IMG/VR virus record: IMGVR_UViG_3300032665_002541
Coordinates: 1-22,883 of that record
Source of the DNA: a virus
Length of the DNA: 22,883 nucleotides
Strand: one strand, 5' to 3'
Made by a program: the position numbers and the translations under genes. A model generated the notes under the pieces. It saw nothing but the letters and a program-made list of their open reading frames with translations. It did not search any database and was not told the origin of the DNA. Below, one piece after another: positions 1 through 19,231 of this stretch (its first letter is position 1; every line of letters starts with the position of its first letter).

Positions 1-190
1 GGTTCCGCAACGATATCTCAATGCATATCACTATCCTCTTTATCGAAACAAAGGGGCAAAAAATAACCTAGACGCCATGGGATTCAGCGGCCAGTGGCAT
101 AAAGGAGATTTTTTGATACACTGCCCAGATCATCCGATGCATGTGCGCATGTCCTTGTTTAATCAGATACTGCCCGAGGTGATTACCTGA
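1..190 (+). CDS. C-terminal end of a probable glycosyltransferase (partial)
   Basis: An open frame runs from base 2 to the TGA at 188-190 and its start lies before the window. About 62 residues are visible, beginning VPQRYLNAYHYP, with a later W-H-K-G-D-F-L-I-H-C stretch. A PQ..lNaY segment followed by W..GDF.iH resembles the C-terminal part of GT34-type (GMA12/MNN10) galactosyltransferase-like proteins. This is from memory of the family pattern, not a search. The stop overlaps the next start by one base (TGATG), so it belongs to the downstream sugar operon, which fits a glycosyltransferase. That it is coding is fairly sure; the family is tentative. Confidence 0.55.
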   Translation, partial: VPQRYLNAYHYPLYRNKGAKNNLDAMGFSGQWHKGDFLIHCPDHPMHVRMSLFNQILPEVIT

Positions 191-1017
191 TGCGTGTTTT
201 CATAACAGGTGCATCCGGATTCATCGGGCGCAACCTGACAGAATATTACAAAGATCACGATGTAATAGAATACAAACGCGGAGAACCGTTGTTCGACTGT
301 TTGCTAATGGCAGATCCAGATGTAATAATTAACTGTGCAGCGGAAATATACAATCCCGATCTAATGTGGCAAGCAAACATAGGCATAACGGCAACTTGTC
401 TAAGCTATCTAAAAGGCTGTGAAAACAAAAAGATGATACAAATTGGATCAAGTTCAGAATATGGTCCAATGCCGCATGCAAGCTCTGAAACGGATCGTAT
501 AAATCCTGTGGACATGTACCAAGCGACCAAGGGCATGGCAACAATACTTTGCCAAGGCGTGGCTAGAACATACGATCTAGACGTGAAGATTGCAAGGCCA
601 TACAGCGTCTACGGCAAATATGAAAAGCCCCACAGACTATTTCCAAGACTGTGGCGAGCATATCAGCTCAACCAACACATGACCTTATATGACGGTGAGC
701 ACGATTTCATCTACATAGATGATTTCATCCGTGGTGTTGATATGTTGGTAAGCTCTGGTAATAAAAATCCGGGCGAAATCATCAATTTTGGTTCAGGTGT
801 GCAGCATAGCAATGTAGAGGTGTGGAACATGTTCGACAAAATTACATCCAGAACTGCGCCAGTAAAGCATGTACCAGGCATGATAAAGAACTTTGAAACA
901 GAGGTTTGGCGTTGTGATACCACATATGCCAGAGAGAAATACGGCTTTGAGTGCAGTTATGATTTAGAAGCCGGGATCAGGGATTTCCTCGCCACAGCCA
1001 ACTTTGATAAGGATTGA
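190..1017 (+). CDS. NAD-dependent epimerase/dehydratase (extended SDR family)
   Basis: This 275-residue protein is an extended short-chain dehydrogenase/reductase acting on a nucleotide-activated sugar. The Rossmann nucleotide-binding motif GASGFIG is at residues 7-13. The catalytic Ser lies in the GSSSEYG stretch (86-92), and Tyr110-x3-Lys114 (YQATK) completes the catalytic set. The C-terminal substrate domain has RPYSVYG and HDFIYIDDF, as in GDP-mannose dehydratase, GDP-fucose synthase and UDP-glucose epimerase relatives. At 275 residues it is slightly short for the family (300-350). It overlaps the preceding gene by one base and is followed after 2 bases by a methyltransferase. The exact sugar and reaction cannot be told from sequence alone. 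Confidence 0.88.
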   Translation: MRVFITGASGFIGRNLTEYYKDHDVIEYKRGEPLFDCLLMADPDVIINCAAEIYNPDLMWQANIGITATCLSYLKGCENKKMIQIGSSSEYGPMPHASSETDRINPVDMYQATKGMATILCQGVARTYDLDVKIARPYSVYGKYEKPHRLFPRLWRAYQLNQHMTLYDGEHDFIYIDDFIRGVDMLVSSGNKNPGEIINFGSGVQHSNVEVWNMFDKITSRTAPVKHVPGMIKNFETEVWRCDTTYAREKYGFECSYDLEAGIRDFLATANFDKD

Positions 1018-1019
1018 AC

Positions 1020-1733
1020 ATGAAGCTTTTTCGCCAGCTGGTCACTGCCAACAGAGGGGTGGTTACCATAGATACTGATGATCAACACATACTGGATCAT
1101 TTTGCAAATCCTGCAAACTACGCCGATGTTGTGCTTGATATGTTTAACAATGACAGGTTTTACGATGGGTTTTTTAATGGCTGGAGCGATCTAACCATAC
1201 TTGATATTGGTGGAAACATCGGATTATTTTCTCTTTACATACAAGACAAGGCCAAAGAGGTTTATAGCGTAGAACCAACACCAAGCCATTTTTCCATATT
1301 AAAGGAAATGACAAAGGAGTACAAAAATGTACATCCTATTAACATTGCATTGCATTCACAGGACGGTCCCATTGATTTCTATATCAGCAACGAAAACAGC
1401 ACAATGAACAGTTCTGTCAATCAATACGGGGTAAAAACCACCGTGCAGGGCAAGACCCTTAAAACGCTGATAGCAGACCTGGGTCTTACAAAAGTTGATT
1501 TTGTCAAATGCGATATCGAAGGTTCTGAAATGTCAGCGCTGACACAAGAGACGATAGGTGCTGTAAAGGATATCGTATCGGTTTGGAGCATTGAGGTACA
1601 CGCAACTGATAAAACGGTCCACCCTGAAATCAGTTTGAATCGCAATCGAAACCACATAATGCAAATCTTGATCAACAATGGCTATAATGCATTGAAGCAT
1701 AGATATGATTGCATATATGCCTACAAGGTTTAA
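1020..1733 (+). CDS. FkbM-family SAM-dependent methyltransferase
   Basis: This 237-residue methyltransferase probably O-methylates a sugar or glycan. SAM-binding motif I is ILDIGGNIGLFSLY (about residues 60-73), followed by VEPTPSHFSIL and the FkbM hallmark VDFVKCDIEGSE. I chose ATG at 1020 over the in-frame TTG at 1014 because AAGGA at 1009-1013 sits six bases before the ATG but directly abuts the TTG. The gene starts 2 bases after the SDR stop and ends 3 bases before the split transketolase. FkbM enzymes are common in phage and bacterial surface-glycan clusters; the acceptor here is unknown. Confidence 0.87.
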   Translation: MKLFRQLVTANRGVVTIDTDDQHILDHFANPANYADVVLDMFNNDRFYDGFFNGWSDLTILDIGGNIGLFSLYIQDKAKEVYSVEPTPSHFSILKEMTKEYKNVHPINIALHSQDGPIDFYISNENSTMNSSVNQYGVKTTVQGKTLKTLIADLGLTKVDFVKCDIEGSEMSALTQETIGAVKDIVSVWSIEVHATDKTVHPEISLNRNRNHIMQILINNGYNALKHRYDCIYAYKV

Positions 1734-1736
1734 AAA

Positions 1737-2345
1737 ATGCATCCAATAGAACGACGTATAATTGATATAACCTACCAGGAAAAGTTAAGCCACCTTAGTA
1801 GCTGCTTGTCGGCTTGGCCCATCATACATGAAATATATGGCAAGAAGTCCGATGATGAGGTTTTCATTCTTAGCAACGGACACGCAGGTTTGGCATTGTA
1901 TTGTGAGCTCGAATCACGATACGGAATTGACCCGATAATGCTGCTACACAAGCACGGCATACACCCTGGTAAGGATCCTGAAAACCGGCTATTTTGTTCA
2001 ACAGGCAGTTTAGGCAGTGGTTTACCAATAGCCGTTGGACATGCACTTGCGGATCGTAATAAAAATGTTTACTGCATGATAAGCGACGGCGAAGCAGCCG
2101 AAGGTAGCATCTGGGAAAGCCTACGATTCATACATACTGCTAAACTTACCAACTTGCATGTTTATGCCAATATCAACGGCATGTCGGCATATGAATACAT
2201 TGATGTTGACTATCTGATCAAGCGTCTTGTGGCATTTCTACCACGCATTCATATCAGGGTGTCTGACTCGATCAAATTACCATTCGTTAGTGGTCTTCTT
2301 TCCCACTATTACGTGATCAAACCAGAGGACTACCAATCACTATGA
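1737..2345 (+). CDS. Transketolase N-terminal (TPP-binding) subunit, short form
   Basis: This 202-residue protein matches the thiamine-diphosphate-binding half of transketolase. Visible marks are LSNGHAGLALY (family LSKGHA), GIHPGKDPENRL, STGSLGSGLPIAVGHAL (87-103), and the TPP/Mg motif SDGEAAEGSIWE starting at 116, with Asn147 thirty residues after Asp117. The usual GDG is SDG here. Two-gene transketolases have an N-terminal subunit of about 270 residues, so this one is trimmed, mainly after the TPP motif. Its ATGA overlap with the next gene (the other half) supports a coupled two-subunit enzyme. It may transfer a two-carbon ketol unit to a sugar; the substrate is unknown. Confidence 0.85.
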   Translation: MHPIERRIIDITYQEKLSHLSSCLSAWPIIHEIYGKKSDDEVFILSNGHAGLALYCELESRYGIDPIMLLHKHGIHPGKDPENRLFCSTGSLGSGLPIAVGHALADRNKNVYCMISDGEAAEGSIWESLRFIHTAKLTNLHVYANINGMSAYEYIDVDYLIKRLVAFLPRIHIRVSDSIKLPFVSGLLSHYYVIKPEDYQSL

Positions 2346-2824
2346 GAAAAGAATGCATGGATTTGTTATTTCATTCCATGGCGGATAACCAAAATATCAT
2401 GGTTCTCACTGCCGATCTTGGTTTTGGCCTATTGGATAACATACGAGACACATATGCTGATAGGTATTGGAATGTGGGCGCAGCCGAACAATTAATGGTT
2501 GGGGCAGCGGTTGGACTGGCAGAATCAGGTAAGATCCCGGTATGCTACAGCATGAGCAGTTTCCTGCTTTACCGTCCATTTGAAATGTTACGTAACTATG
2601 TCAATCATGAAAAGGTTCCTGTTAAATTGATAGGCAGCGGACGTGATCGTGATTATTCGCATGACGGAATAAGCCATTGGGCACACGACGATGAAGAATT
2701 ATTGCAAGCCTTACCAAACATTGAAATATACAAACCAGCCGATGTGCGTGAGTTAGAAAGCTGGTGGCCGCAATTTATATTTGGTTCAAAACCTGCTTAC
2801 CTGAACCTAACGAGGAAGATATGA
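2342..2824 (+). CDS. Transketolase pyrimidine-binding subunit, C-terminal domain missing
   Basis: This 160-residue protein matches the pyrimidine-binding domain of transketolase. It has WNVGAAEQLMVGAAVGLAES with the Glu that activates thiamine diphosphate, then RPFEMLRNYVNHEKVPVKLI, SHDGISHWAHDDEELLQAL and IEIYKPADVRE. Stand-alone C-terminal subunits are normally about 300 residues, because a transketolase C-domain follows. Here the protein stops right after the pyrimidine domain, and the next gene begins inside its last codons (ATGA at 2821-2824), so the missing domain is not encoded downstream. It pairs with the TPP-binding half just upstream. Active-site residues are kept, so a minimal working enzyme is plausible. 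Confidence 0.83.
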   Translation: MRKECMDLLFHSMADNQNIMVLTADLGFGLLDNIRDTYADRYWNVGAAEQLMVGAAVGLAESGKIPVCYSMSSFLLYRPFEMLRNYVNHEKVPVKLIGSGRDRDYSHDGISHWAHDDEELLQALPNIEIYKPADVRELESWWPQFIFGSKPAYLNLTRKI

Positions 2825-3771
2825 CAACCAAAGTGGTGTATGTAACTGGTTGCTTGGGGTTCATTGGCGGCTACGTGACCAGAGCCTGCTTACAGCGCGG
2901 TTGGCATGTAATGGGTGTTGACAGCCAAACATATGCTGCTAATGTCAACTTGCTAGAAGAGTTTAACAGGCACGTTAACTTTACTTATCAACATAAAAAC
3001 ATCAATGATCTCAGCTTGCTATACGATTGCGATTACATTATCAATACAGCAGCAGAGACCCACGTGGACAACAGCATTGTTAACAGTGACGAGTTTATTC
3101 GCAGCAACATCGACGGTGTGCATAACCTTTTACGCTTGATACAAACCAAAAGCAGATTTAAAATGCCAACATTGGTGCATTTCAGCACGGATGAGGTTTA
3201 CGGTGATTCTGAAGTTGGTAGTTTCAATGAAACGCAGCTGATGAAACCAAGCAACCCGTATGCTGCTACCAAAGCGTCTGCAGACATGCTGATAATGGCA
3301 TGGAATCGAACCTACGGTGTGCCATATATCATCGTTAGACCCAGCAACAATTATGGCATTGGTCAATACATAGAAAAATTCATACCAAAAAGCATACAAT
3401 ATCTTTCGTTGGGAAAACGGGTCCCGTTACATGAAAATGGCATGCCGCGCAGGACCTGGCTCCATGCGCAGGATACAGCTGACGCTGTTTTGTTCCTGAT
3501 TGAAAATGGTTCTCCTAATGAGATTTACAACATCTCCGGCAACTATGAGGATACCAACATAAACGTATTCAAAAAAATGCTAGCTTGTTTGGATCTTAAC
3601 CTCAACAACTATCACCAGTATGTTGATTTTTCGGTCAAGAGACCGGGACAGGATGTTAGATACAGCATAGACGACGGTAAAATCCGATCCATGGGTTGGA
3701 ATAACAATAGGCTGTTTGATCAAGAGCTCCCTGCCATAGTTGATTATCATAGCAAAAGGTTTGTCTGGTGA
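2821..3771 (+). CDS. dTDP-glucose 4,6-dehydratase-like enzyme (RmlB-type SDR)
   Basis: This 316-residue extended SDR probably converts a nucleotide-hexose to its 4-keto-6-deoxy form. The NAD-binding motif is TGCLGFIGG (9-17). HFSTDEVYGD (120-129) carries the Thr-Asp-Glu typical of 4,6-dehydratases, and Tyr147-x3-Lys151 (YAATK) is the catalytic pair. Later RPSNNYGIGQ, FIPKSI and PRRTWLHAQDTA are also RmlB-like. An in-frame start at 2764 would add 19 unrelated residues. ATG 2821 is preferred because GAGGAA lies just upstream and it forms an ATGA overlap with the previous gene. It is somewhat shorter than RmlB (about 350). It probably supplies the keto-sugar used by the neighbouring enzymes. Confidence 0.88.
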   Translation: MTTKVVYVTGCLGFIGGYVTRACLQRGWHVMGVDSQTYAANVNLLEEFNRHVNFTYQHKNINDLSLLYDCDYIINTAAETHVDNSIVNSDEFIRSNIDGVHNLLRLIQTKSRFKMPTLVHFSTDEVYGDSEVGSFNETQLMKPSNPYAATKASADMLIMAWNRTYGVPYIIVRPSNNYGIGQYIEKFIPKSIQYLSLGKRVPLHENGMPRRTWLHAQDTADAVLFLIENGSPNEIYNISGNYEDTNINVFKKMLACLDLNLNNYHQYVDFSVKRPGQDVRYSIDDGKIRSMGWNNNRLFDQELPAIVDYHSKRFVW

Positions 3772-4481
3772 GGATTGCATTACAGATAAGTGGAAGGTTG
3801 CGTTTCACCGAAAGCAGCCTTAGCAGCTTGATCGGTGCAATAGTTGAACCTTTGCAACCTGATATTTTCTTCAACTTCTGGCAGCCTGATCACATATCAA
3901 CACTGTCATATTACAAACAGTGCTTGGATCCTAAATTGGTTGAAATTGAGGATCAAGGCTTGGTACGGCCATACCTGGATGATCTATTCCATTTCAATGT
4001 GCACAAAAACATGCCCAGCATGAGCTACAAGTTTTACAAATCAAGCCAGCTGCGAAAATCCTGGGAAACAGCCACCAATACAAACTATGACGTGGTAATA
4101 CAAGCACGTAGCGACAATTTATTCTTTGAAAAATTAGACATCCAACGATGCCAACATGCGCTTGATACACGCGCAATACTTTGTGCTAATCAAGGGTACA
4201 ATCCCGTAATTGACGATCATATAACACAACCACGAATGGTTGATAATTTCTATCTTGGTCCAACAGATCTGGTTGATCAAGCAAATAATACTTTCTGGAA
4301 CCTGCGCTATCAAGCACAGGAGTACACAGAACGTGGACAACTGCATCATGTACGGATACCTGAAATAATACAAACCAAGATATGGCAAGACGCTGGTATC
4401 GCCATTGCAGGATTGTCAGGAAAGGGTGCTGTAGGAAACTTTTGGTACGACATAGACCGCAGCGAAACAAAATGGAAATGA
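3768..4481 (+). CDS. Unrecognised protein, possible glycosyltransferase
   Basis: I do not firmly recognise this 237-residue protein. It starts with GTG (GTGA overlap with the previous stop), and AAAAGG lies eight bases upstream. The N-terminus MRIALQISGRLRF, the MSYKFYKSSQLRKSWE stretch and YDVVIQARSDNLFF (about residues 107-120) resemble phage and environmental proteins often found in glycan clusters. ARSDN could be a DxD-like nucleotide-sugar site, but that is weak. No signal peptide or membrane segment is visible. Its place between a 4,6-dehydratase and a GT4 glycosyltransferase suggests sugar transfer or modification. Coding status is secure; function is an inference from context. Confidence 0.6.
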   Translation: MRIALQISGRLRFTESSLSSLIGAIVEPLQPDIFFNFWQPDHISTLSYYKQCLDPKLVEIEDQGLVRPYLDDLFHFNVHKNMPSMSYKFYKSSQLRKSWETATNTNYDVVIQARSDNLFFEKLDIQRCQHALDTRAILCANQGYNPVIDDHITQPRMVDNFYLGPTDLVDQANNTFWNLRYQAQEYTERGQLHHVRIPEIIQTKIWQDAGIAIAGLSGKGAVGNFWYDIDRSETKWK

Positions 4482-4485
4482 TCTA

Positions 4486-5439
4486 ATGAAGCTATTATTT
4501 GTTGTACATCGCTATGGATATCCCGGAGGGTCTGAAATCTATGTGCAAGGCATGGCAGAGGAATGCGCACGCAGAGGCCACCAAGCAGCGGTATTTGCAG
4601 GAGAACATAAGGGTAACATGAATAACGTGATGATTACACATGATGCAACCATATTAGGACATGCATGGGACCTTATCGTCGTACATGGCGGCGATGTTGC
4701 CATCCAAAATTTTGTGCTAACGCATGCCAAGCAGATAAAAAGTCCCATATTGTATCTTTTAGTGCTACCCAGCAACAGCAATGTGTGCCTGCAAGCATTG
4801 CAAGACTGCTCATACATCGGCTGTAGCACCAAGCAAGATTGGATACATTGCCAACGCCACGGAGTTATTGATAAAGCCATTGAGGTTCGGCACGGAATAA
4901 CCTGGCAGGATTGCATCGGCAAACCCGGATTTAGGGAAAAATACGGAATATCGGGAACGATGTTTTTGAGTTGCGGAGGATATTGGCCAAACAAAGCCAT
5001 GCGAGAACTTGCTGCTGTATTTGATCGGTGCAGGCCTGCAAATTCAGTGTTGGTAACAACTGGTTATGATAATCGCATGGATCTGATGCCGCTGGAAACT
5101 GATGTTGTAAAGCCATTTTTGCTTGATGATAGGACCGATGTATTAAGCGCGATACACGATGCTGATTGTCTCGTCATGCACAGCTATCAGGAAGGATTTG
5201 GCCTTGTATTGCTGGAAGCAATGCTAAACCAAACACCCTGGATAGCCAGGAATATAGCGGGTGCCAAAACACTGGAAAAATTTGGTAAAACCTACACAAA
5301 TGATTCTCAATTGGAACTTTTGCTACAAGATTTCAATAGAAATCAGTTTGATATCAGGGCCGCATACGAGCATGTATGCAGCAATCATCTTATCAGCAAT
5401 ACGGTTGATGACATTCTATCCGTGTTGTATCGGTCATAA
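4486..5439 (+). CDS. Glycosyltransferase family 4 (GT-B fold)
   Basis: This 317-residue protein is a retaining GT-B glycosyltransferase. The N-terminal acceptor domain opens MKLLFVVHRYGYPGGSEIYV, with the Gly-rich GGSE loop usual for GT4. The C-terminal donor domain has FLSCGGYWPNKAMREL, then HDADCLVMHSYQEGFGLVLLEAM, where Glu236 and Glu244 form the conserved E-x7-E motif. It is somewhat short for the family (350-400). It starts 4 bases after the preceding stop and is the last gene of the plus-strand operon. It meets the minus-strand oxygenase gene tail to tail, with a 6-base overlap. It probably attaches the sugar made by the upstream enzymes; the acceptor is unknown. Confidence 0.88.
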   Translation: MKLLFVVHRYGYPGGSEIYVQGMAEECARRGHQAAVFAGEHKGNMNNVMITHDATILGHAWDLIVVHGGDVAIQNFVLTHAKQIKSPILYLLVLPSNSNVCLQALQDCSYIGCSTKQDWIHCQRHGVIDKAIEVRHGITWQDCIGKPGFREKYGISGTMFLSCGGYWPNKAMRELAAVFDRCRPANSVLVTTGYDNRMDLMPLETDVVKPFLLDDRTDVLSAIHDADCLVMHSYQEGFGLVLLEAMLNQTPWIARNIAGAKTLEKFGKTYTNDSQLELLLQDFNRNQFDIRAAYEHVCSNHLISNTVDDILSVLYRS

Positions 5440-6691: not shown

Positions 6692-8308
6692 TTACTTTTT
6701 GCTGTGGCCGCGTCGCATGTTGATCTGCCAGCGTGCTAGCTGACCCTTACGTCCAGGGGCCTTGGCTGCTTTTTGTAACTGGGCCATGGTGGCATTTTTA
6801 GGGATTCCATGACGCCGGCTGTCACCCGGCCGACCTGGGCCCTTACCATCCGCGAAGTTTTCGTCTATGTAGTTTTCCCATTCGTCCGGATCGCCTGATA
6901 ATTTTTGGAATTTCACATCGCCAGTTTCAAACTTTATATCGGGTATCTTCGTCCAAGAGTAGCCTCCGCCTTGTTCGTATACATGATACGGTATGTCAAT
7001 CTCATAGATACCTTCGTCAAATTTTGCCACAACATATACATGTTGTTCCATGGAGCAACTTACGGGCGTACAGTCTATTCCAGTTTGACCCAATACATCA
7101 CAAATTCCATCTGCTATTATATGACAGATGCCGCCGCCTGCATATGTGTCACGATCTGATTCGTCCCAATCATCATATATTTTTTGTGCTTTGGCTAATA
7201 TCTGCGGCATAAGGGCTTTTGCTTGGTTAACAGAAGGCAAGTTTTGATTCTCAACATCGTCATGTTCAAGATTTTCTCTTACACTTTTGCTCTTGGTTAG
7301 CGCATGCCGCTGTCGTTTTTTCCTGGCAGCACAATGGGCACGCTGGCTAAAGCCTCGCGGATTCTTGCAATTGATGCTGCGCTTGTATTTCTTGCTCCAG
7401 GTTTCGGATAGTGAATCAGACGCCTGTTGGGCTTCCCAGTCCATGAATGACTCTGCCAATTGATGACAGAAGGCACGTATGGCCGGATTGCTGGTTTCGA
7501 TTATGTTGAAATGTCGCTGCTCTTCAGGCTGTGTAGGATCATCATATCCTGCATATACCTTGTGTATGTTACTGCGATTTATCAGATCCGTGCAGCTTTC
7601 TTCGTATCTATCACCCATGCGTTCACTGCATGGACTGCACGTGGTTATGCAAATGCTGCCATTGGGAATATCACCATGGAGTTGCTCATATTTCATCATG
7701 GCACATCTTTCCGCATGATGCCATTTACCACGGATTTTCCTTCCTGTACTGGAAACAAGCCTATTGTCAGGATCCAATATGGCAGCAGCAACCATGCCGT
7801 GTGTATCAGGATCCTGCCGCTGACCATTAACAACCAGTTCACACAATTTTACAAGTATGACATCCAGCTTGTGATAGTTATAAATTTCCCAATCAGATCG
7901 TTTTTCATCCAGGGTATGTGATAAATGGCTTTGGTCAGAATTTCCATCCTCTATACCAGATCGTTCCCAATGCTTGAATATAGGATGGTACTTGTTTATT
8001 GCACTATATGGTTCCATGCTGCGATAGGCATAATCATCGTTGCCCATATACTGGACATATCCTTTTACTGCCCATTCACCCATTGCAGGTGCCATGCTAT
8101 TATGTGTAAAGTTTGCCGAATCCGCAGCAACCACTGTGCCATCTTTGTAGATTACAAATCTACAACTGTGAAACCGGTTATTTTTGGCCAATGCTTTCAG
8201 TGCCGATATGGTGGGATTTTTGTGTACAATTTCTTGCGCACGGTATTCATTTAACTGACTATCGTTTTCAACGCTTTCTAATAGGTTGATTATTTTTCTA
8301 ATATCCAT
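6692..8308 (-). CDS. Mosaic protein: deaminase-like, cysteine-protease-like and basic tail motifs
   Basis: This 538-residue protein is counted from ATG 8308; a GTG at 8320 is less likely. Residues 1-12 (MDIRKIINLLES) contain L-L-E, a T4-type prohead-protease site. Residues 45-120 form an unassigned domain (CRFVIYKDGTVVAADS). Residues 170-260 look like a zinc deaminase: H198-A-E200, P226-C227 and C239. The last zinc ligand is spaced as in RibD-type rather than PCxxC enzymes. Residues 306-332 are a basic SINCKNPRGFSQRAHCAARK motif seen in many phages. Residues 390-440 have a possible Cys395-His423-Asp438 triad (GGGICHIIAD, QHVYVVAKF, YEIDIP). The tail (487-533) is a basic GPGRPGDSRRHG / ARWQINM motif. 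Its 5' end lies 4 bases after the upstream stop. Function unknown. Confidence 0.65.
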   Translation of the reverse strand: MDIRKIINLLESVENDSQLNEYRAQEIVHKNPTISALKALAKNNRFHSCRFVIYKDGTVVAADSANFTHNSMAPAMGEWAVKGYVQYMGNDDYAYRSMEPYSAINKYHPIFKHWERSGIEDGNSDQSHLSHTLDEKRSDWEIYNYHKLDVILVKLCELVVNGQRQDPDTHGMVAAAILDPDNRLVSSTGRKIRGKWHHAERCAMMKYEQLHGDIPNGSICITTCSPCSERMGDRYEESCTDLINRSNIHKVYAGYDDPTQPEEQRHFNIIETSNPAIRAFCHQLAESFMDWEAQQASDSLSETWSKKYKRSINCKNPRGFSQRAHCAARKKRQRHALTKSKSVRENLEHDDVENQNLPSVNQAKALMPQILAKAQKIYDDWDESDRDTYAGGGICHIIADGICDVLGQTGIDCTPVSCSMEQHVYVVAKFDEGIYEIDIPYHVYEQGGGYSWTKIPDIKFETGDVKFQKLSGDPDEWENYIDENFADGKGPGRPGDSRRHGIPKNATMAQLQKAAKAPGRKGQLARWQINMRRGHSKK

Positions 8309-8312
8309 GATT

Positions 8313-9182
8313 TTATACACCAGTGGTTCTTGATTTTAATACTTTATCAACATAATCAAAAGGTTCGTTTCGTGGAGCATCTCTCTTTAGATATCTGTTT
8401 TCTGGAGGTATAACACCTGATCTAGTCAACATATCACTATGCGTTCCAACATTTTTAGTTGTTGCTTTAAATGCTTTATCTTCCACGAATGATAAGAATT
8501 GCTTATCTTGATTGGTTTGAACAAATCCCTTAATAACATTTGATAGTATGTTAATGGATTCATTATAAGCAGCAGGATCAAAAGGTATGAGCTGCGGTCC
8601 TGTGCCGAATAGTTTTTTCCAATCACTTTTAAACATACCTCCTGTTCGTTGCACATTGTCCTTAAACAGTCCAGGATTGTCATATTGCGGAAAATCATTC
8701 CATAGCGACTGGGGAACCATGCCTAATGGTTCACTTACCGTAACAAAATACACCGGATATCTGTTGTCGTTTATTATCTTGTTGTAGCTCTTATACAGGC
8801 CCCTGCTGGCACCTGCCCAGGGTTTTGTCTTGGCACAGGGCACGAACGCAATGGTTGAATAGCGATCCGGAACCTTATATGTGACGATTTCATCATGCCA
8901 TGATTTTATTATAGGATTTTTTAGGAGATGTATCGTTTCGCCTGGCGTATATGCAGTAAGATTGGTATCCAATTCAGGATTTGATGCCAGGCTCCTAGCC
9001 ACCAAAAACTTCCTAAAACGCGGCCAATCTTCTCGTGATATGTATCCAGGTGTGCCCAGTTGACCATATTCAACCTTGGATAATTTTGAGTATGATTCCG
9101 CGATTTCTGCAGGGGAAAGCGTACCAGCAGCGGCAGGAGTCACTGATTTTATGGTGGCTTCAATTATTTCAGATATTAGCAT
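8313..9182 (-). CDS. DUF5591/archaeosine-synthase-core-like protein, possible packaged head protein
   Basis: This is a 289-residue protein. Residues 111-172 carry IAFVPCAKTKPW (Cys116), GLYKSYNKI, YFVTVSEPLGMVP and FPQYDNPGLF. That order (PC..TKP, then S.PLG.VP, then YD.P) resembles the DUF5591 domain of archaeosine synthase (ArcS) and related 7-deazaguanine enzymes. I recognise it by pattern only; a DUF6884-like phage family is an alternative. The first residues MLISEIIEA contain I-I-E, a T4 prohead-protease-type site, so residues 1-8 could be a capsid-targeting peptide. A perfect TATAAATA box ends six bases before the ATG, and no Shine-Dalgarno is present. The gene leads the minus-strand accessory operon down to the oxygenase. 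Confidence 0.58.
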   Translation of the reverse strand: MLISEIIEATIKSVTPAAAGTLSPAEIAESYSKLSKVEYGQLGTPGYISREDWPRFRKFLVARSLASNPELDTNLTAYTPGETIHLLKNPIIKSWHDEIVTYKVPDRYSTIAFVPCAKTKPWAGASRGLYKSYNKIINDNRYPVYFVTVSEPLGMVPQSLWNDFPQYDNPGLFKDNVQRTGGMFKSDWKKLFGTGPQLIPFDPAAYNESINILSNVIKGFVQTNQDKQFLSFVEDKAFKATTKNVGTHSDMLTRSGVIPPENRYLKRDAPRNEPFDYVDKVLKSRTTGV

Positions 9183-9259: not shown

Positions 9260-10120
9260 ATGAAATTTATATGTAGAGAATGTGGCAGAGGATTTGGTCA
9301 AATCACGGGCAAACATCTGAAAACACATGGTATCAACACGGTAGCAGAATATCTGGCAAAATATCCAGGTACAGAAACGGTACGTGCCAGGAGAGATTCT
9401 CCAGAAACTTTGGAACGCAAGCGGATTGCTAGGACTGGCAAGCAGCATAGCGACGAGGCCAAAGCAAAGATCGGTGCCAAGCACAAGGGCAAGAAGCGTA
9501 CAGAGCAGGAGATAGATAAATGGCGTGCCAGCTATAAGGAATATCTCGACGAACACGGTTCGCCAATGCTAGGCAAGGATCGCGGTGCCGCATTCAAGGC
9601 AAAGATGAGTGCCATCGCCAAGGCTAGGCCCAAAGAGATGGTCGATGCAAAGGTCGCACAGATGTTGGCTGCGCGGCGCGGTAGCAAGACCACACCGGAG
9701 CAGAGGGAGAGATATTCTGCTGCCAGGATAAAATACATGATTGAGAATCCTGATAAGCTTGGACCAACAAAGCTCTTTAACACTCGGCCTGAATTGGAAT
9801 TTGAAAAAGAATTACAGGACCGATCGGTGCCATACAGAAAAAATGTACCTATTGGAGGTTATCTTTACGATTTTTTAATAAATGATGATCTCATTGTTGA
9901 AATTGACGGCCCTTATCATTATGATAAGAATCTTTATGGTTCAAAAACAGATCCAGAGTCGATGAAGCTCGAAGGGCTTGCTCGAACACAAGCAAAGGAT
10001 GCAAAAAAGGACAAACGTGCAAGCGAGCTAGGATATAAGATGTATAGGATCAAAGTAGGAGGAAAACTGCCAGACGACTGGTATCAACAGCTACTTGAAC
10101 AAAAATGGTTTTATTTCTAA
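9260..10120 (+). CDS. Free-standing homing endonuclease, Vsr/DUF559-like (EDxHD type)
   Basis: This 286-residue protein reads as a three-part homing endonuclease. The N-terminus has a MucR-like zinc finger (Cys5, Cys8, His19, His23) followed by INTVAEYLAKYPG. Residues 62-115 are basic with NUMOD3-like repeats (SDEAKAKIGAKHKGKK), which usually bind DNA. The C-terminus (174-270) is a PD-(D/E)xK nuclease: NTRPELEFEKEL, GYLYDF (Asp204), LIVEIDGPYHYD (Glu214, Asp216, His220), then KDKRASELGYKMYRIKV. It is the only plus-strand gene in this region and sits between two minus-strand genes. It has its own TATAAATA box (9227-9234) and AGAGG six bases before the ATG. It probably cleaves a neighbouring phage gene in endonuclease-free relatives; the capsid gene is the obvious candidate. 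Confidence 0.82.
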   Translation: MKFICRECGRGFGQITGKHLKTHGINTVAEYLAKYPGTETVRARRDSPETLERKRIARTGKQHSDEAKAKIGAKHKGKKRTEQEIDKWRASYKEYLDEHGSPMLGKDRGAAFKAKMSAIAKARPKEMVDAKVAQMLAARRGSKTTPEQRERYSAARIKYMIENPDKLGPTKLFNTRPELEFEKELQDRSVPYRKNVPIGGYLYDFLINDDLIVEIDGPYHYDKNLYGSKTDPESMKLEGLARTQAKDAKKDKRASELGYKMYRIKVGGKLPDDWYQQLLEQKWFYF

Positions 10121-15907: not shown

Positions 15908-18900
15908 TTATTGTCCAGGTGCAGGGCCCAACGCCCCCGTTGCAGCTTCCCCTCCAGGGGTTGCCACCGCACCGCCTGTTTCAGTTGGCGCCGGGGCTTC
16001 TTCAGCTGGCAGCTCTTGTCCAGGTACTTGGGTTTCATTGTTACCCTGCGGACGAATTCCTACGTTTTGTAGGCCAGGCTGGTCTTCGCTGCCTATCTGC
16101 ACACCGATCTTATCCTTGACCTTTTTGGCGTTTTCCTCTTTCCAGAGTTTTTCGTTTTCAAGTATGTCCTCGTCCGTCCAGTTTAGATATCTCTTCAGCG
16201 CAAATCTCTTGCTGATATATTTTGCTGCTTCTGTTTGTATCAAGCTTGAGAAAACCGTGATTTGCTCCGCGTCAAGTGCCATTTGTCTATACTGGCTAAA
16301 GCTTTGCGGTTCCCACATTTGCAATTCAAACGTATCGCTTTCAATTTCAATACCCCTTGACTTGACATAGAGCTTGAATTCCTTATCAAGCACAGGAGCC
16401 ATGAGATTCTGCAAACGCTGGCAAACCTTGGCAAATCTAAATTCCTGTACATATGCTGTGCCTACCTTGCCATCCGTGTAAGCGGTTGTGCCGTCTTCTG
16501 GGCCCGTTGGTAGATAGCTGCTGGGTATTCCAAGACCGCGGATCATCTTGTTGTTGAAATATTTCAGGTCGTCGATCTGTCCAAGATTCTCTCCTCCGGG
16601 CAGTGTTTCAATCTTGGTACCCTTACCTTCGCTGTTGGTGGCAAGGAAGAAATCCTCATTTATGGCTATTGGGCTGTAGGCAGCATCAAGTATACTATTG
16701 CATACGAACACGCCAGATTGCGTGGCAAAATTATGAAAATCATGATAAATTTCATTGCCATCGACGGTGATAGTTCCGGTGTCCATAGTTTCATCTAACC
16801 ATTCTATAGCAACAACTTTATGATTATACTGCGATGCTTTATTTTTGAAATCTGTCCATCCTTTATATCCAAATGAAGTCAGCATGGTATTTACGGTACT
16901 ACTTGTTATTTTTGTAATTTTTGCATTACCACGTTTATGCTTATTTTCATCTATCAATAAATCAAAAAATTCCTTATTAGCATTCAATACATCTGGTAAT
17001 TTTGATTTTGTAAGATTTTTATCTTGTTTAACCATGTCAGACAAAATAGATATGTGTCGTTGATTAAACGCTATTTTTAGAGATTTTTTTTGAATGTTAT
17101 AGCCAAATGATTTTGTAAAAGCTGACCATGATTTATAACCAAACGATTTGACTAATTTGGTTATGGTATCTTTTGAAAATTTATCACAATTAATTTTATT
17201 GAGCATTCCTTCTCTAGGCATGTTCAGTAATTTATAATGTTTCATAAACTCTTTATCATCTGACAATGCAATACATACTGCCTCTATATTAGATCCAACG
17301 TATGAGACCATCTCTATACATTTTGATAACATAAATTCATCAAATGAATTTGCCTGATTTTGAAACTTTCCTTCCGGATGTAATTTCAAATATTGAGTTC
17401 TATATTCAGATTTCTTTTTGATAAATTCTGCATAAGTTGACGATGTTTTCAAACGCTGCCAGTGAACAACCGCTGCTTTCGACATCTTTTCTCGTATCGA
17501 TGGGTTGTTTTTGTGTGCCAGTTTGATACTATTTGATAGTTTCACACCAAGTTCTAAATTATTTGCATATGCTGCTCTGACAGCTTTGGCATTCTTTTGT
17601 CTGTGTTCAAACTGTTGCTCAACAGTTAACGAATTCCACCATTCAGAATACTTGTTTGCGTGCAATTTAAAATGATCTGCGCCGTTCATGAATGCTAAAT
17701 TTTCTGGAGAATTATTATATTTGTTGTAATCTATATGATGAATAACTGATTTACGTTCATCAACAAAACGTCGGTCATATACTAACTCATTGTGCAAATT
17801 GATTAACTTAAAGTAATTTGCAACCATACGATGGGTAAATTCCCATTTTTTTGAAGCATGATTGAATAGTTGGTGATATTGCGGATCATCACTATTGCGG
17901 TTTTCATTTATTGATTCATATCTAGTTCCAAAGCTGATCAAGCTATCTTTGTTTATTTCAATATCTTTTGCTTGAATATTACCTTTACCCATAATTGGAA
18001 TTTTATGGTCTGGTGTAACAATCAAAGTTTGACCGTTGTCCAGTGTTAGTTTTATAACTTGTGTATGCGTTCTAGTCACACCTGCCCACGAAATCAATCC
18101 TGGAACAATTTGACCAGTTTTAACATCAACTGAATATACCCAATTTGTTGCGCCATTATTAAACTCGGTGATCAATTGAGATAATTTTAAAGATCTACCA
18201 TCAAGTAATGGTACTATTGTATCCAAATCAAGACATTGTCCGCCCCCGGTTCTATTAGGTATTCTGCGTTGATATATTTCATTTTTCATTCGCTCTATGA
18301 CCTGCTGGGCCCTGGGTCCGCTTAGGCTTCCGGTATCTATGTAAAACACGCGGCGTTCTGGGGCCCTGACAACTCGATAGATCAGGATACAGTCCTCGAG
18401 CAGATCCTTCTGCTTGTATACCTTGTAGATGCTTTCCAGTATGCTGGTACCAAACGGCCACTGGCTATCCATGCCTTCGCTTAGGCTGAGATGTACGACA
18501 TGCGTTGCATCAACGGCTAATTGGTTTGGTTGCAAATCAAATCGGCTTGTTCTGCTGCCTGGACTGCTGCCAATGCCATAGTTGATGGTTCCTGCGCCAG
18601 CCGCAGGGTTGCTGCTGCGAGGATAACCTCCAGGAAAGCTATAGTTGTCGTGTATCAACATGTTGCTGCCAACCAATGTGGTGAGATTTAGATCAAGGTC
18701 CTTGATAACATATTGTTCAGCGCTCTTGCCCTTGTCTTCGTTGACGATAATCTTTTCCACCTTGGTAGGATCAATCCAGATGAGCTTGAACGTTTCAGGA
18801 TCCCTTACGAAAATCTGATCGCCATATTTTAGGGTATTCCTGAATGCTCGCCATAAACGTTGCTGCCATCTATTCAGCTTGCACCATTGCTTGAGCATGC

Positions 18901-19231
18901 CCTTGAGGATTTTTATCTCTGTTTCCGTCATTGTATCGTTGTATATAAGCTGGAAAGGGTCGTCTTTTACCTCATAGTTCTGTACGGAATAATCCGCTAG
19001 AACATCAAGGCCTTTGCTTATTTCACTGTCAAGGTCCATTTGTTCATATTGAACATAGCGTTCGACCCGATTTGGAGCTCCGCTATAAACTTCCGGCAGA
19101 TAGCTTGCATACTTTGCACCTGAACCCGCTCCTGAACCACCAGATCCACCCGATCCGGAATGTTGGCTTAATTTTTGATTTAAACGTGTTTGGCTAGGTA
19201 CTGCCGAAAAATATTTCTTCCAAGACGCCAT
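15908..19231 (-). CDS. 20: Portal vertex protein, T4 gp20-like, interrupted by an intein
   Basis: The reading frame encodes 1107 residues; removing residues 333-845 (an intein) leaves a 594-residue portal, close to T4 gp20 (524). Portal features include YASYLPEVYSGAPNRVERY, the MLKQWCKLNRWQQRLWRAFR helix, GDQIFVRDPE, SLSEGMDSQWPFGTSILESI, and RAPERRVFYIDTGSL. After the intein come EDFFLATNSEGKGTKIETLPGG and IPSSYLPTGPEDGTTAY. The portal ring joins head and tail and passes DNA. The N-terminus has a Gly/Ser linker (25-38) and the C-terminus a Pro/Ala/Glu-rich tail, both likely flexible. AAGGG lies eleven bases before ATG, and late-promoter-like boxes are at 19259-19266 and 19285-19292. Confidence 0.95.
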   Translation of the reverse strand: MASWKKYFSAVPSQTRLNQKLSQHSGSGGSGGSGAGSGAKYASYLPEVYSGAPNRVERYVQYEQMDLDSEISKGLDVLADYSVQNYEVKDDPFQLIYNDTMTETEIKILKGMLKQWCKLNRWQQRLWRAFRNTLKYGDQIFVRDPETFKLIWIDPTKVEKIIVNEDKGKSAEQYVIKDLDLNLTTLVGSNMLIHDNYSFPGGYPRSSNPAAGAGTINYGIGSSPGSRTSRFDLQPNQLAVDATHVVHLSLSEGMDSQWPFGTSILESIYKVYKQKDLLEDCILIYRVVRAPERRVFYIDTGSLSGPRAQQVIERMKNEIYQRRIPNRTGGGQCLDLDTIVPLLDGRSLKLSQLITEFNNGATNWVYSVDVKTGQIVPGLISWAGVTRTHTQVIKLTLDNGQTLIVTPDHKIPIMGKGNIQAKDIEINKDSLISFGTRYESINENRNSDDPQYHQLFNHASKKWEFTHRMVANYFKLINLHNELVYDRRFVDERKSVIHHIDYNKYNNSPENLAFMNGADHFKLHANKYSEWWNSLTVEQQFEHRQKNAKAVRAAYANNLELGVKLSNSIKLAHKNNPSIREKMSKAAVVHWQRLKTSSTYAEFIKKKSEYRTQYLKLHPEGKFQNQANSFDEFMLSKCIEMVSYVGSNIEAVCIALSDDKEFMKHYKLLNMPREGMLNKINCDKFSKDTITKLVKSFGYKSWSAFTKSFGYNIQKKSLKIAFNQRHISILSDMVKQDKNLTKSKLPDVLNANKEFFDLLIDENKHKRGNAKITKITSSTVNTMLTSFGYKGWTDFKNKASQYNHKVVAIEWLDETMDTGTITVDGNEIYHDFHNFATQSGVFVCNSILDAAYSPIAINEDFFLATNSEGKGTKIETLPGGENLGQIDDLKYFNNKMIRGLGIPSSYLPTGPEDGTTAYTDGKVGTAYVQEFRFAKVCQRLQNLMAPVLDKEFKLYVKSRGIEIESDTFELQMWEPQSFSQYRQMALDAEQITVFSSLIQTEAAKYISKRFALKRYLNWTDEDILENEKLWKEENAKKVKDKIGVQIGSEDQPGLQNVGIRPQGNNETQVPGQELPAEEAPAPTETGGAVATPGGEAATGALGPAPGQ
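16697..18235 (-). mobile_element. Intein with HNH homing endonuclease in the portal gene
   Basis: This 513-residue in-frame insertion corresponds to portal residues 333-845. It starts with Cys333 after GGGQ. Splicing block A is CLDLDTIVPLLDGRSLK, and block B is LIVTPDHKIPI with Thr406 and His409. The C-terminal blocks are NHKVVAIEWLDE and DFHNFATQSGVFVCN, followed by Ser+1. The usual penultimate His is Cys844. Residues 495-524 form an HNH nuclease (VIHHIDYNKYNNSPENL, ADHFKLH). Two DNA-binding-like repeats with SFGYK cores at 696 and 786 follow. Base composition is strongly AT-rich: 27% GC at 16981-17040 against 53% at 18421-18480, counted by hand. This supports horizontal arrival. Splicing would restore RTGGGQ-SILDAAY in the portal. 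Confidence 0.93.

Follow-up and report, generated by a model that had tools for sequence, protein, structure and literature searches.

The portal protein gene in a 22,883-nucleotide stretch of viral DNA (IMG/VR record IMGVR_UViG_3300032665_002541; hereafter the window) is interrupted by an intein that ends in Cys-Asn, with cysteine at the penultimate position where histidine is common. The reading we favor, at a probability of roughly 0.8, is that this is an active and mobile class 1-type HNH intein from a clade lacking the penultimate His, in which a block-F His substitutes for the missing residue, the penultimate cysteine (Cys512) is tolerated, and the copy in the window arrived by recent homing. 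What appeared to be a one-residue curiosity becomes a natural experiment at the level of a family, with more than 100 portal inteins whose penultimate position is no longer fixed and has been filled by any of eight different residues.

The interrupted portal gene

The host gene (15908..19231, minus strand), from an uncultured T4-like phage, encodes a T4-like portal protein (gp20) of 1107 residues, including the intein in frame. A Pfam profile search of this ORF matched Portal_T4 (PF07230, E 6e-95) in two stretches flanking an insert at residues 333-845, and by tblastn both exteins are 43-50% identical to the portals of jumbo phages. Pfam, NCBIfam and PHROGs placed portal sequence on either side of the insert and, inside it, intein splicing and HNH endonuclease domains. 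Homologues of the portal ORF were found in 2,023 INPHARED records; among the isolated phages in INPHARED, we found none with a clear member of the intein clade described below.

Elsewhere in the window, genes of a sugar or cell-surface type lie beside the head genes (190-5439, plus strand) and encode NAD-dependent epimerases, a methyltransferase, a split transketolase-like pair and a glycosyltransferase. Additionally, the product of a gene at 6692-8320 (minus strand), 542 residues long, contains a cytidine/deoxycytidylate deaminase domain (PF00383) and gives a weak AID/APOBEC-like match.

Boundaries, core residues and class of the intein

The intein spans 513 residues from Cys1 to Asn513 (16697..18235, minus strand), starts with CLDLDT and ends with HDFHNFATQSGVFVCN, followed by Ser+1. 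The element is supported by the profile matches, the AlphaFold model with its HINT fold, and its exact absence from an otherwise matching allele in contig L132 (below). The insert matched NCBIfam TIGR01445 (intein N-terminal region) at 32.2 bits (cutoff 24.5) and Pfam Intein_splicing at 33.8 bits, slightly below the cutoff of 35.8. The match to HNH_3 (PF13392), at 21 bits, is below its cutoff of 24.8, yet it is aligned at the HNH core. This homing endonuclease core, IHHIDYNKYNNSPENLAFMNGADHFKLH (residues ~162-192; 17660..17752, minus strand), was located with PF13392 and PHROG HNH profiles, several PHROG HNH families matching the insert with a best E of 3.7e-8. Residues H166, H167, N174, N175, N179, H188 and H192 are invariant in alignment A1, and the catalytic core of an HNH homing intein is present.

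To score the splicing residues we used an alignment of 61 relatives (A3), where the residues tested include Cys1, Thr74, His77, His501 and Asn513. Cys1, the block A nucleophile (18233..18235), Thr74 (B:7) and His77 (B:10) in the block B motif TPDH (18005..18016), the standard block-F histidine His501 (F:13; 16733..16735) and the C-terminal Asn513 (codon AAT; 16697..16699), all encoded on the minus strand, are invariant. The sole core residues that vary among the 61 relatives are the Asp at F:4 and the His at G:6. On the same strand of the window, an alignment of 205 viral inteins places Thr488 (16772..16774) at F:4, where Asp is usual, and the penultimate position G:6 is Cys512 (Cys844 of the ORF; codon TGC; 16700..16702). 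Comparison with relatives also revealed an extra block-F histidine, His498 (16742..16744, minus strand), three residues ahead of the standard one.

The splicing domain was modeled by AlphaFold at a pLDDT of about 95-98 and has a HINT fold, with 39 PDB matches (E up to 0.001) led by inteins; the NpuDnaE and SspDnaE inteins are among the best. The element is therefore an intein on two counts, as an in-frame insert with uninterrupted homologous alleles and by its HINT fold. Cys1, T74 and H77 of block B, the C-terminal N513 and Ser+1 place it in class 1, where the penultimate His, replaced here by Cys512, is common but not defining. A class 3 mechanism was rejected because Cys1 is present and F:4 is Thr488, not the Cys of the WCT triad.

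An empty allele and conservation of the Cys-Asn ending

Contig L132 represents the same phage without the intein: its portal gene reads straight through NRTGGGQ|SILDAAY, exactly 1539 bp are absent, and DNA identity to the window is 99.7% in both flanks (4.0 kb and 2.2 kb). The portal is likewise uninterrupted in contigs L136 and L137. As L132 lacks exactly these 1539 bp, the intein boundary is exact. The first-pass annotation, which had described a 513-residue portal intein at this location with Cys844 before Asn845|Ser+1 and with the block-F His of DFHNFA retained, was correct in each of these points. It had also named two faults that could overturn its reading, and both are excluded. A boundary elsewhere with a normal His-Asn end is ruled out by L132. 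A sequencing error in the Cys codon is ruled out since the Cys-Asn ending recurs in other assemblies and in a less closely related intein occupying the window's insertion site: the intein of another IMG/VR contig (L001) is identical in DNA to that of the window, those of two further IMG/VR contigs (L002 and L003) share 98% amino acid identity and keep Cys-Asn, and the L138 intein, at 72% amino acid identity, keeps it with the codon TGT rather than TGC.

Absence of the penultimate histidine across a viral clade

We searched with a viral pattern, HNFAxxxGVFVxN, which leaves the penultimate codon free. Viral contigs gave at least 106 distinct endings, at least 88 of them with His, 9 with Lys, 3 with Met and 2 with Cys; rarer endings among the matches listed were 2 Ser, 1 Arg and 1 Tyr. 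In cellular genomes every ending among the matches listed was His (111/111), which makes His the likely ancestral state of inteins as a whole. The pattern HTFAxxxG[IVM][FY]TxN gave 97 distinct viral endings among the matches listed, and none has His: 60 have Lys, 17 Cys, 10 Tyr and 5 Phe, and the remainder are 3 Arg, 1 Gln and 1 Leu. For nearly all of these the C-extein is T4-like portal sequence, and the insertion sites are many but confined to one region.

We built a tree from 198 splicing domains with positions F:4 and G:6 left out. In it, a single branch (SH-aLRT 80) set apart 110 of 112 His-less inteins, along with 4 His inteins. The loss of His lies deep, with just 4 changes in 198 rows. 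Judged from these sequences, the missing penultimate His is a property of a large virus clade, found mostly in T4-like portals, and the clade appears to have lost its G:6 His before the window intein arose. The uniform His of those cellular inteins that share the C-terminal motif could suggest instead that the window intein is an independent mosaic, which alone lost its His through a single substitution. This is contradicted by the depth of the loss in the tree and by the nearest relatives at every portal site, which lack His in 97/97 cases among the matches listed, and we give it almost no weight. The comparison with other phage portal inteins that the first-pass annotation had proposed bears out the absence of His, while the Cys is no lone oddity or special replacement in one intein: the loss is clade-wide, Lys is the commonest residue, and others occur as well.

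Penultimate Cys arose at least twice in the tree, once in the window/L138 pair and once at the portal site YDA|STGE, where all 16 inteins sampled keep the Cys at splicing-domain identities down to 61%. This recurrence and retention would fit a special catalytic or regulatory role for Cys512, either as a redox switch (for example through a disulfide with Cys1) that makes splicing condition-dependent or as an aid in acid-base chemistry. Cys-based redox control is known in inteins, a DnaE redox trap (3nzm) is among the fold matches, and one report describes the DnaB intein as a sensor of oxidative stress (PMC6195587). Against such a role, sister inteins at the same or neighboring sites carry Lys, Tyr, Phe, Met, Arg, Gln or Leu, and penultimate Cys, Phe and Tyr are all seen at the window's own site. 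There is also no evident redox logic for a portal made in a reducing cytoplasm. We consider a dedicated role for Cys512 unlikely; the altered or redox chemistry that the first-pass annotation had suggested takes its cue from the identity of the residue and is unsupported. A side chain that is tolerated at a released position remains our preferred account of the Cys.

The searches also returned several further portal genes with inteins. At the window's site, contig L117 (9287-9787, minus strand) has a 167-residue mini-intein without an endonuclease, 59% identical to the window intein and ending in GVFVYN, which is a compact candidate for splicing assays. A T4-like portal ORF in L297 (562-2805, plus strand) holds three successive inteins of 417, 157 and 149 residues with penultimate Lys, Met and Lys, and with extein spacers of only 13 (SILEDFFLPRREG) and 12 (SKGTEITTLPGG) residues between them. 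Portal genes in L296, L265, L112 and L284 contain two inteins at neighboring sites, those of L296 being ~11 residues apart. Lastly, the PNR|SGGG portal site, 5 residues upstream of the window's, is occupied by 555-residue inteins ending in TKN (L133 and L152; L216 and L280).

Changes in block F that accompany the loss

Among the 205 viral inteins listed, 84 have both the F:4 Asp and the G:6 His, 112 have neither and 9 are mixed. The His inteins have Asp at F:4, in a block F that reads VYDLTV. In the His-less clade the block-F Asp is gone and F:4 is Thr or Cys. Inteins with Thr at F:4 have a longer block F, and 90/94 of those listed carry a second His three residues ahead of the standard one; this extra His occurs in 1/84 of the listed inteins with F:4 Asp and penultimate His. 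Inteins with Cys at F:4 lack the extra His in 9/17 listed cases and lack the penultimate His too. Because they often have neither, His498 is not needed clade-wide. The +1 residue is Ser in 113/114 listed His-less inteins, and Ser, Cys or Thr in the His inteins.

The raw table of F:4 against G:6 for the matches listed gave a Fisher value of 2.6e-46, and the value was 7e-10 in a sample found with a pattern that left both positions free. The tree holds only 3 supported independent F:4/G:6 pairs, of which 2 change together and 1 does not. As the association mostly reflects one ancestral event and the independent pairs are too few, we dropped it as statistical proof of co-change and put functional coupling forward as a hypothesis.

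One tentative possibility, to which we assign less than even odds, is that these phage inteins form a mechanistic subclass where block F has, in effect, taken over the catalytic His of block G, leaving the penultimate position free to vary. The inserted His (HxxH[NT]F, His498) together with loss of the block-F Asp would then replace the penultimate His, and the signature of the subclass would combine HxxH[NT]FA with Thr at F:4, Ser+1 and the absence of a penultimate His. Should the extra block-F His indeed take over, this would reveal how the active sites of inteins are rewired, and the subclass might yield new tools for splicing, with Ser+1 and in short mini versions of about 146-170 residues.

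Evidence for recent homing into the portal gene

Over ~6.16 kb the window and L132 differ at 19 positions, 18 of which lie within -43..+24 of the insertion and one elsewhere. All 18 clustered mismatches, in 67 nt around the insertion, are silent; mismatches spread uniformly would cluster like this with a probability of ~1e-34. The window base is that of L002 at 15/18 of these positions. Upstream (-1 to -43; 18236..18278, minus strand) there are 12 silent differences from L132, 11 of them matching L002, and downstream (+1 to +24; 16673..16696, minus strand) there are 6, of which 4 match. The inteins of the window and L002 differ at 9 nt in 1539, and their flanks are about 75-80% identical. We interpret the cluster, from its sequence, as a co-conversion tract, which indicates that the intein homed into this portal gene recently. 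In the proposed event, the endonuclease would have cleaved an empty, L132-like portal allele, and repair from an L002-related donor would have copied the intein and short flanks into the cut allele. The tract gives indirect support to an endonuclease that is probably active. Paired alleles with and without the intein, together with the tract, document in sequence what is seldom recorded, a recent homing event among uncultured phages.

A separate gene in the window (9260-10120, plus strand), on the opposite strand to the capsid genes and adjoining gp23, encodes a free-standing nuclease (DUF559, motif EIDGPYHYD) that may be a free-standing homing endonuclease.

The homing record also bears on whether the intein is defective or decaying, in which case C-terminal cleavage would fail and the portal would be lost or only partly rescued. 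Both the penultimate His and the block-F Asp are absent, and all 8 of 8 codon differences between the window and L002 inteins are nonsynonymous; purifying selection is therefore not visible on the shortest time scale. Over longer times it appears to have acted with the Cys kept, as the window and L138 inteins differ by a dN of 0.19 and a dS of 1.64 (dN/dS ~0.12), a constraint that argues against decay. The frame is fully open in an essential gene, the copy homed recently with a co-conversion tract, and the loss is shared by more than 100 relatives, every one of which has an open frame and retains the remaining core residues. We regard decay as very improbable. Given these relatives and the recent jump, the odd ending was inherited and is almost certainly functional. 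Since the portal gene is essential the intein would have to splice, as the first-pass annotation had expected from selection, and we infer that it almost certainly does. That annotation, right about the intein and its Cys, had missed the change from Asp to Thr in block F, the extra His and the recent homing.

A proposed splicing pathway

An active intein of this kind would probably follow the usual four steps. Cys1 would form a thioester, aided by Thr74 and His77, followed by transfer to Ser+1. Cyclization of Asn513 would come third, with His501, perhaps together with His498, covering the task of the penultimate His, and an acyl shift would complete the reaction. Cys512 would serve as a tolerated side chain and not as a catalyst. 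We infer the catalytic role of His498 and His501 in place of the missing His, for which there is precedent. As the first-pass annotation had noted, some natural inteins do splice without a penultimate His: the RDF intein of mycobacteriophage Bethlehem, with Gly at this position, splices, and restoring the His slows it (PMC5050341). According to earlier work as cited in that paper, a block-F His can assume the role of the penultimate His, and a catalytic model without this residue has been presented for SspDnaE (Sun et al. 2005, as cited in PMC4031507).

Comparison with known inteins

Inteins without a penultimate His, portal inteins and genes with several inteins are all already known. In the open-access literature, we found no description of a penultimate Cys in inteins, or of an environmental portal intein clade with the combined signature.

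The SspDnaE and NpuDnaE inteins have the HINT fold in common with the window intein, but they are split, cellular and without an endonuclease, whereas the window intein is from a phage and has an embedded HNH. Their block-F Asp is retained, and their last two residues are Ala-Asn or Ser-Asn.

Other class 1 inteins likewise do without the His, among them mycobacteriophage inteins with penultimate Gly, Lys or Ser (PMC5050341) and those reviewed in PMC4031507. These and the window intein share a phage host, Cys1, the block B Thr and His, the block-F His, the terminal Asn and Ser or Cys at +1, and an embedded endonuclease is found in many of them as in the window intein. The window's clade differs in having Thr for Asp in block F, the extra block-F His and a near-universal Ser+1, and the window intein itself differs in its penultimate Cys. 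The PORT inteins of mycobacteriophage cluster C1 (PMC5050341) also lie in a phage portal, although, by their description, in another portal family and phage group. Lastly, the neighboring inteins of haloarchaeal MCM (PMC10643990) resemble those described here in their clustered sites within one gene, homing into empty alleles and co-conversion of flanks. The MCM inteins carry LAGLIDADG endonucleases in a cellular helicase, whereas the window intein carries an HNH endonuclease in a virion portal.
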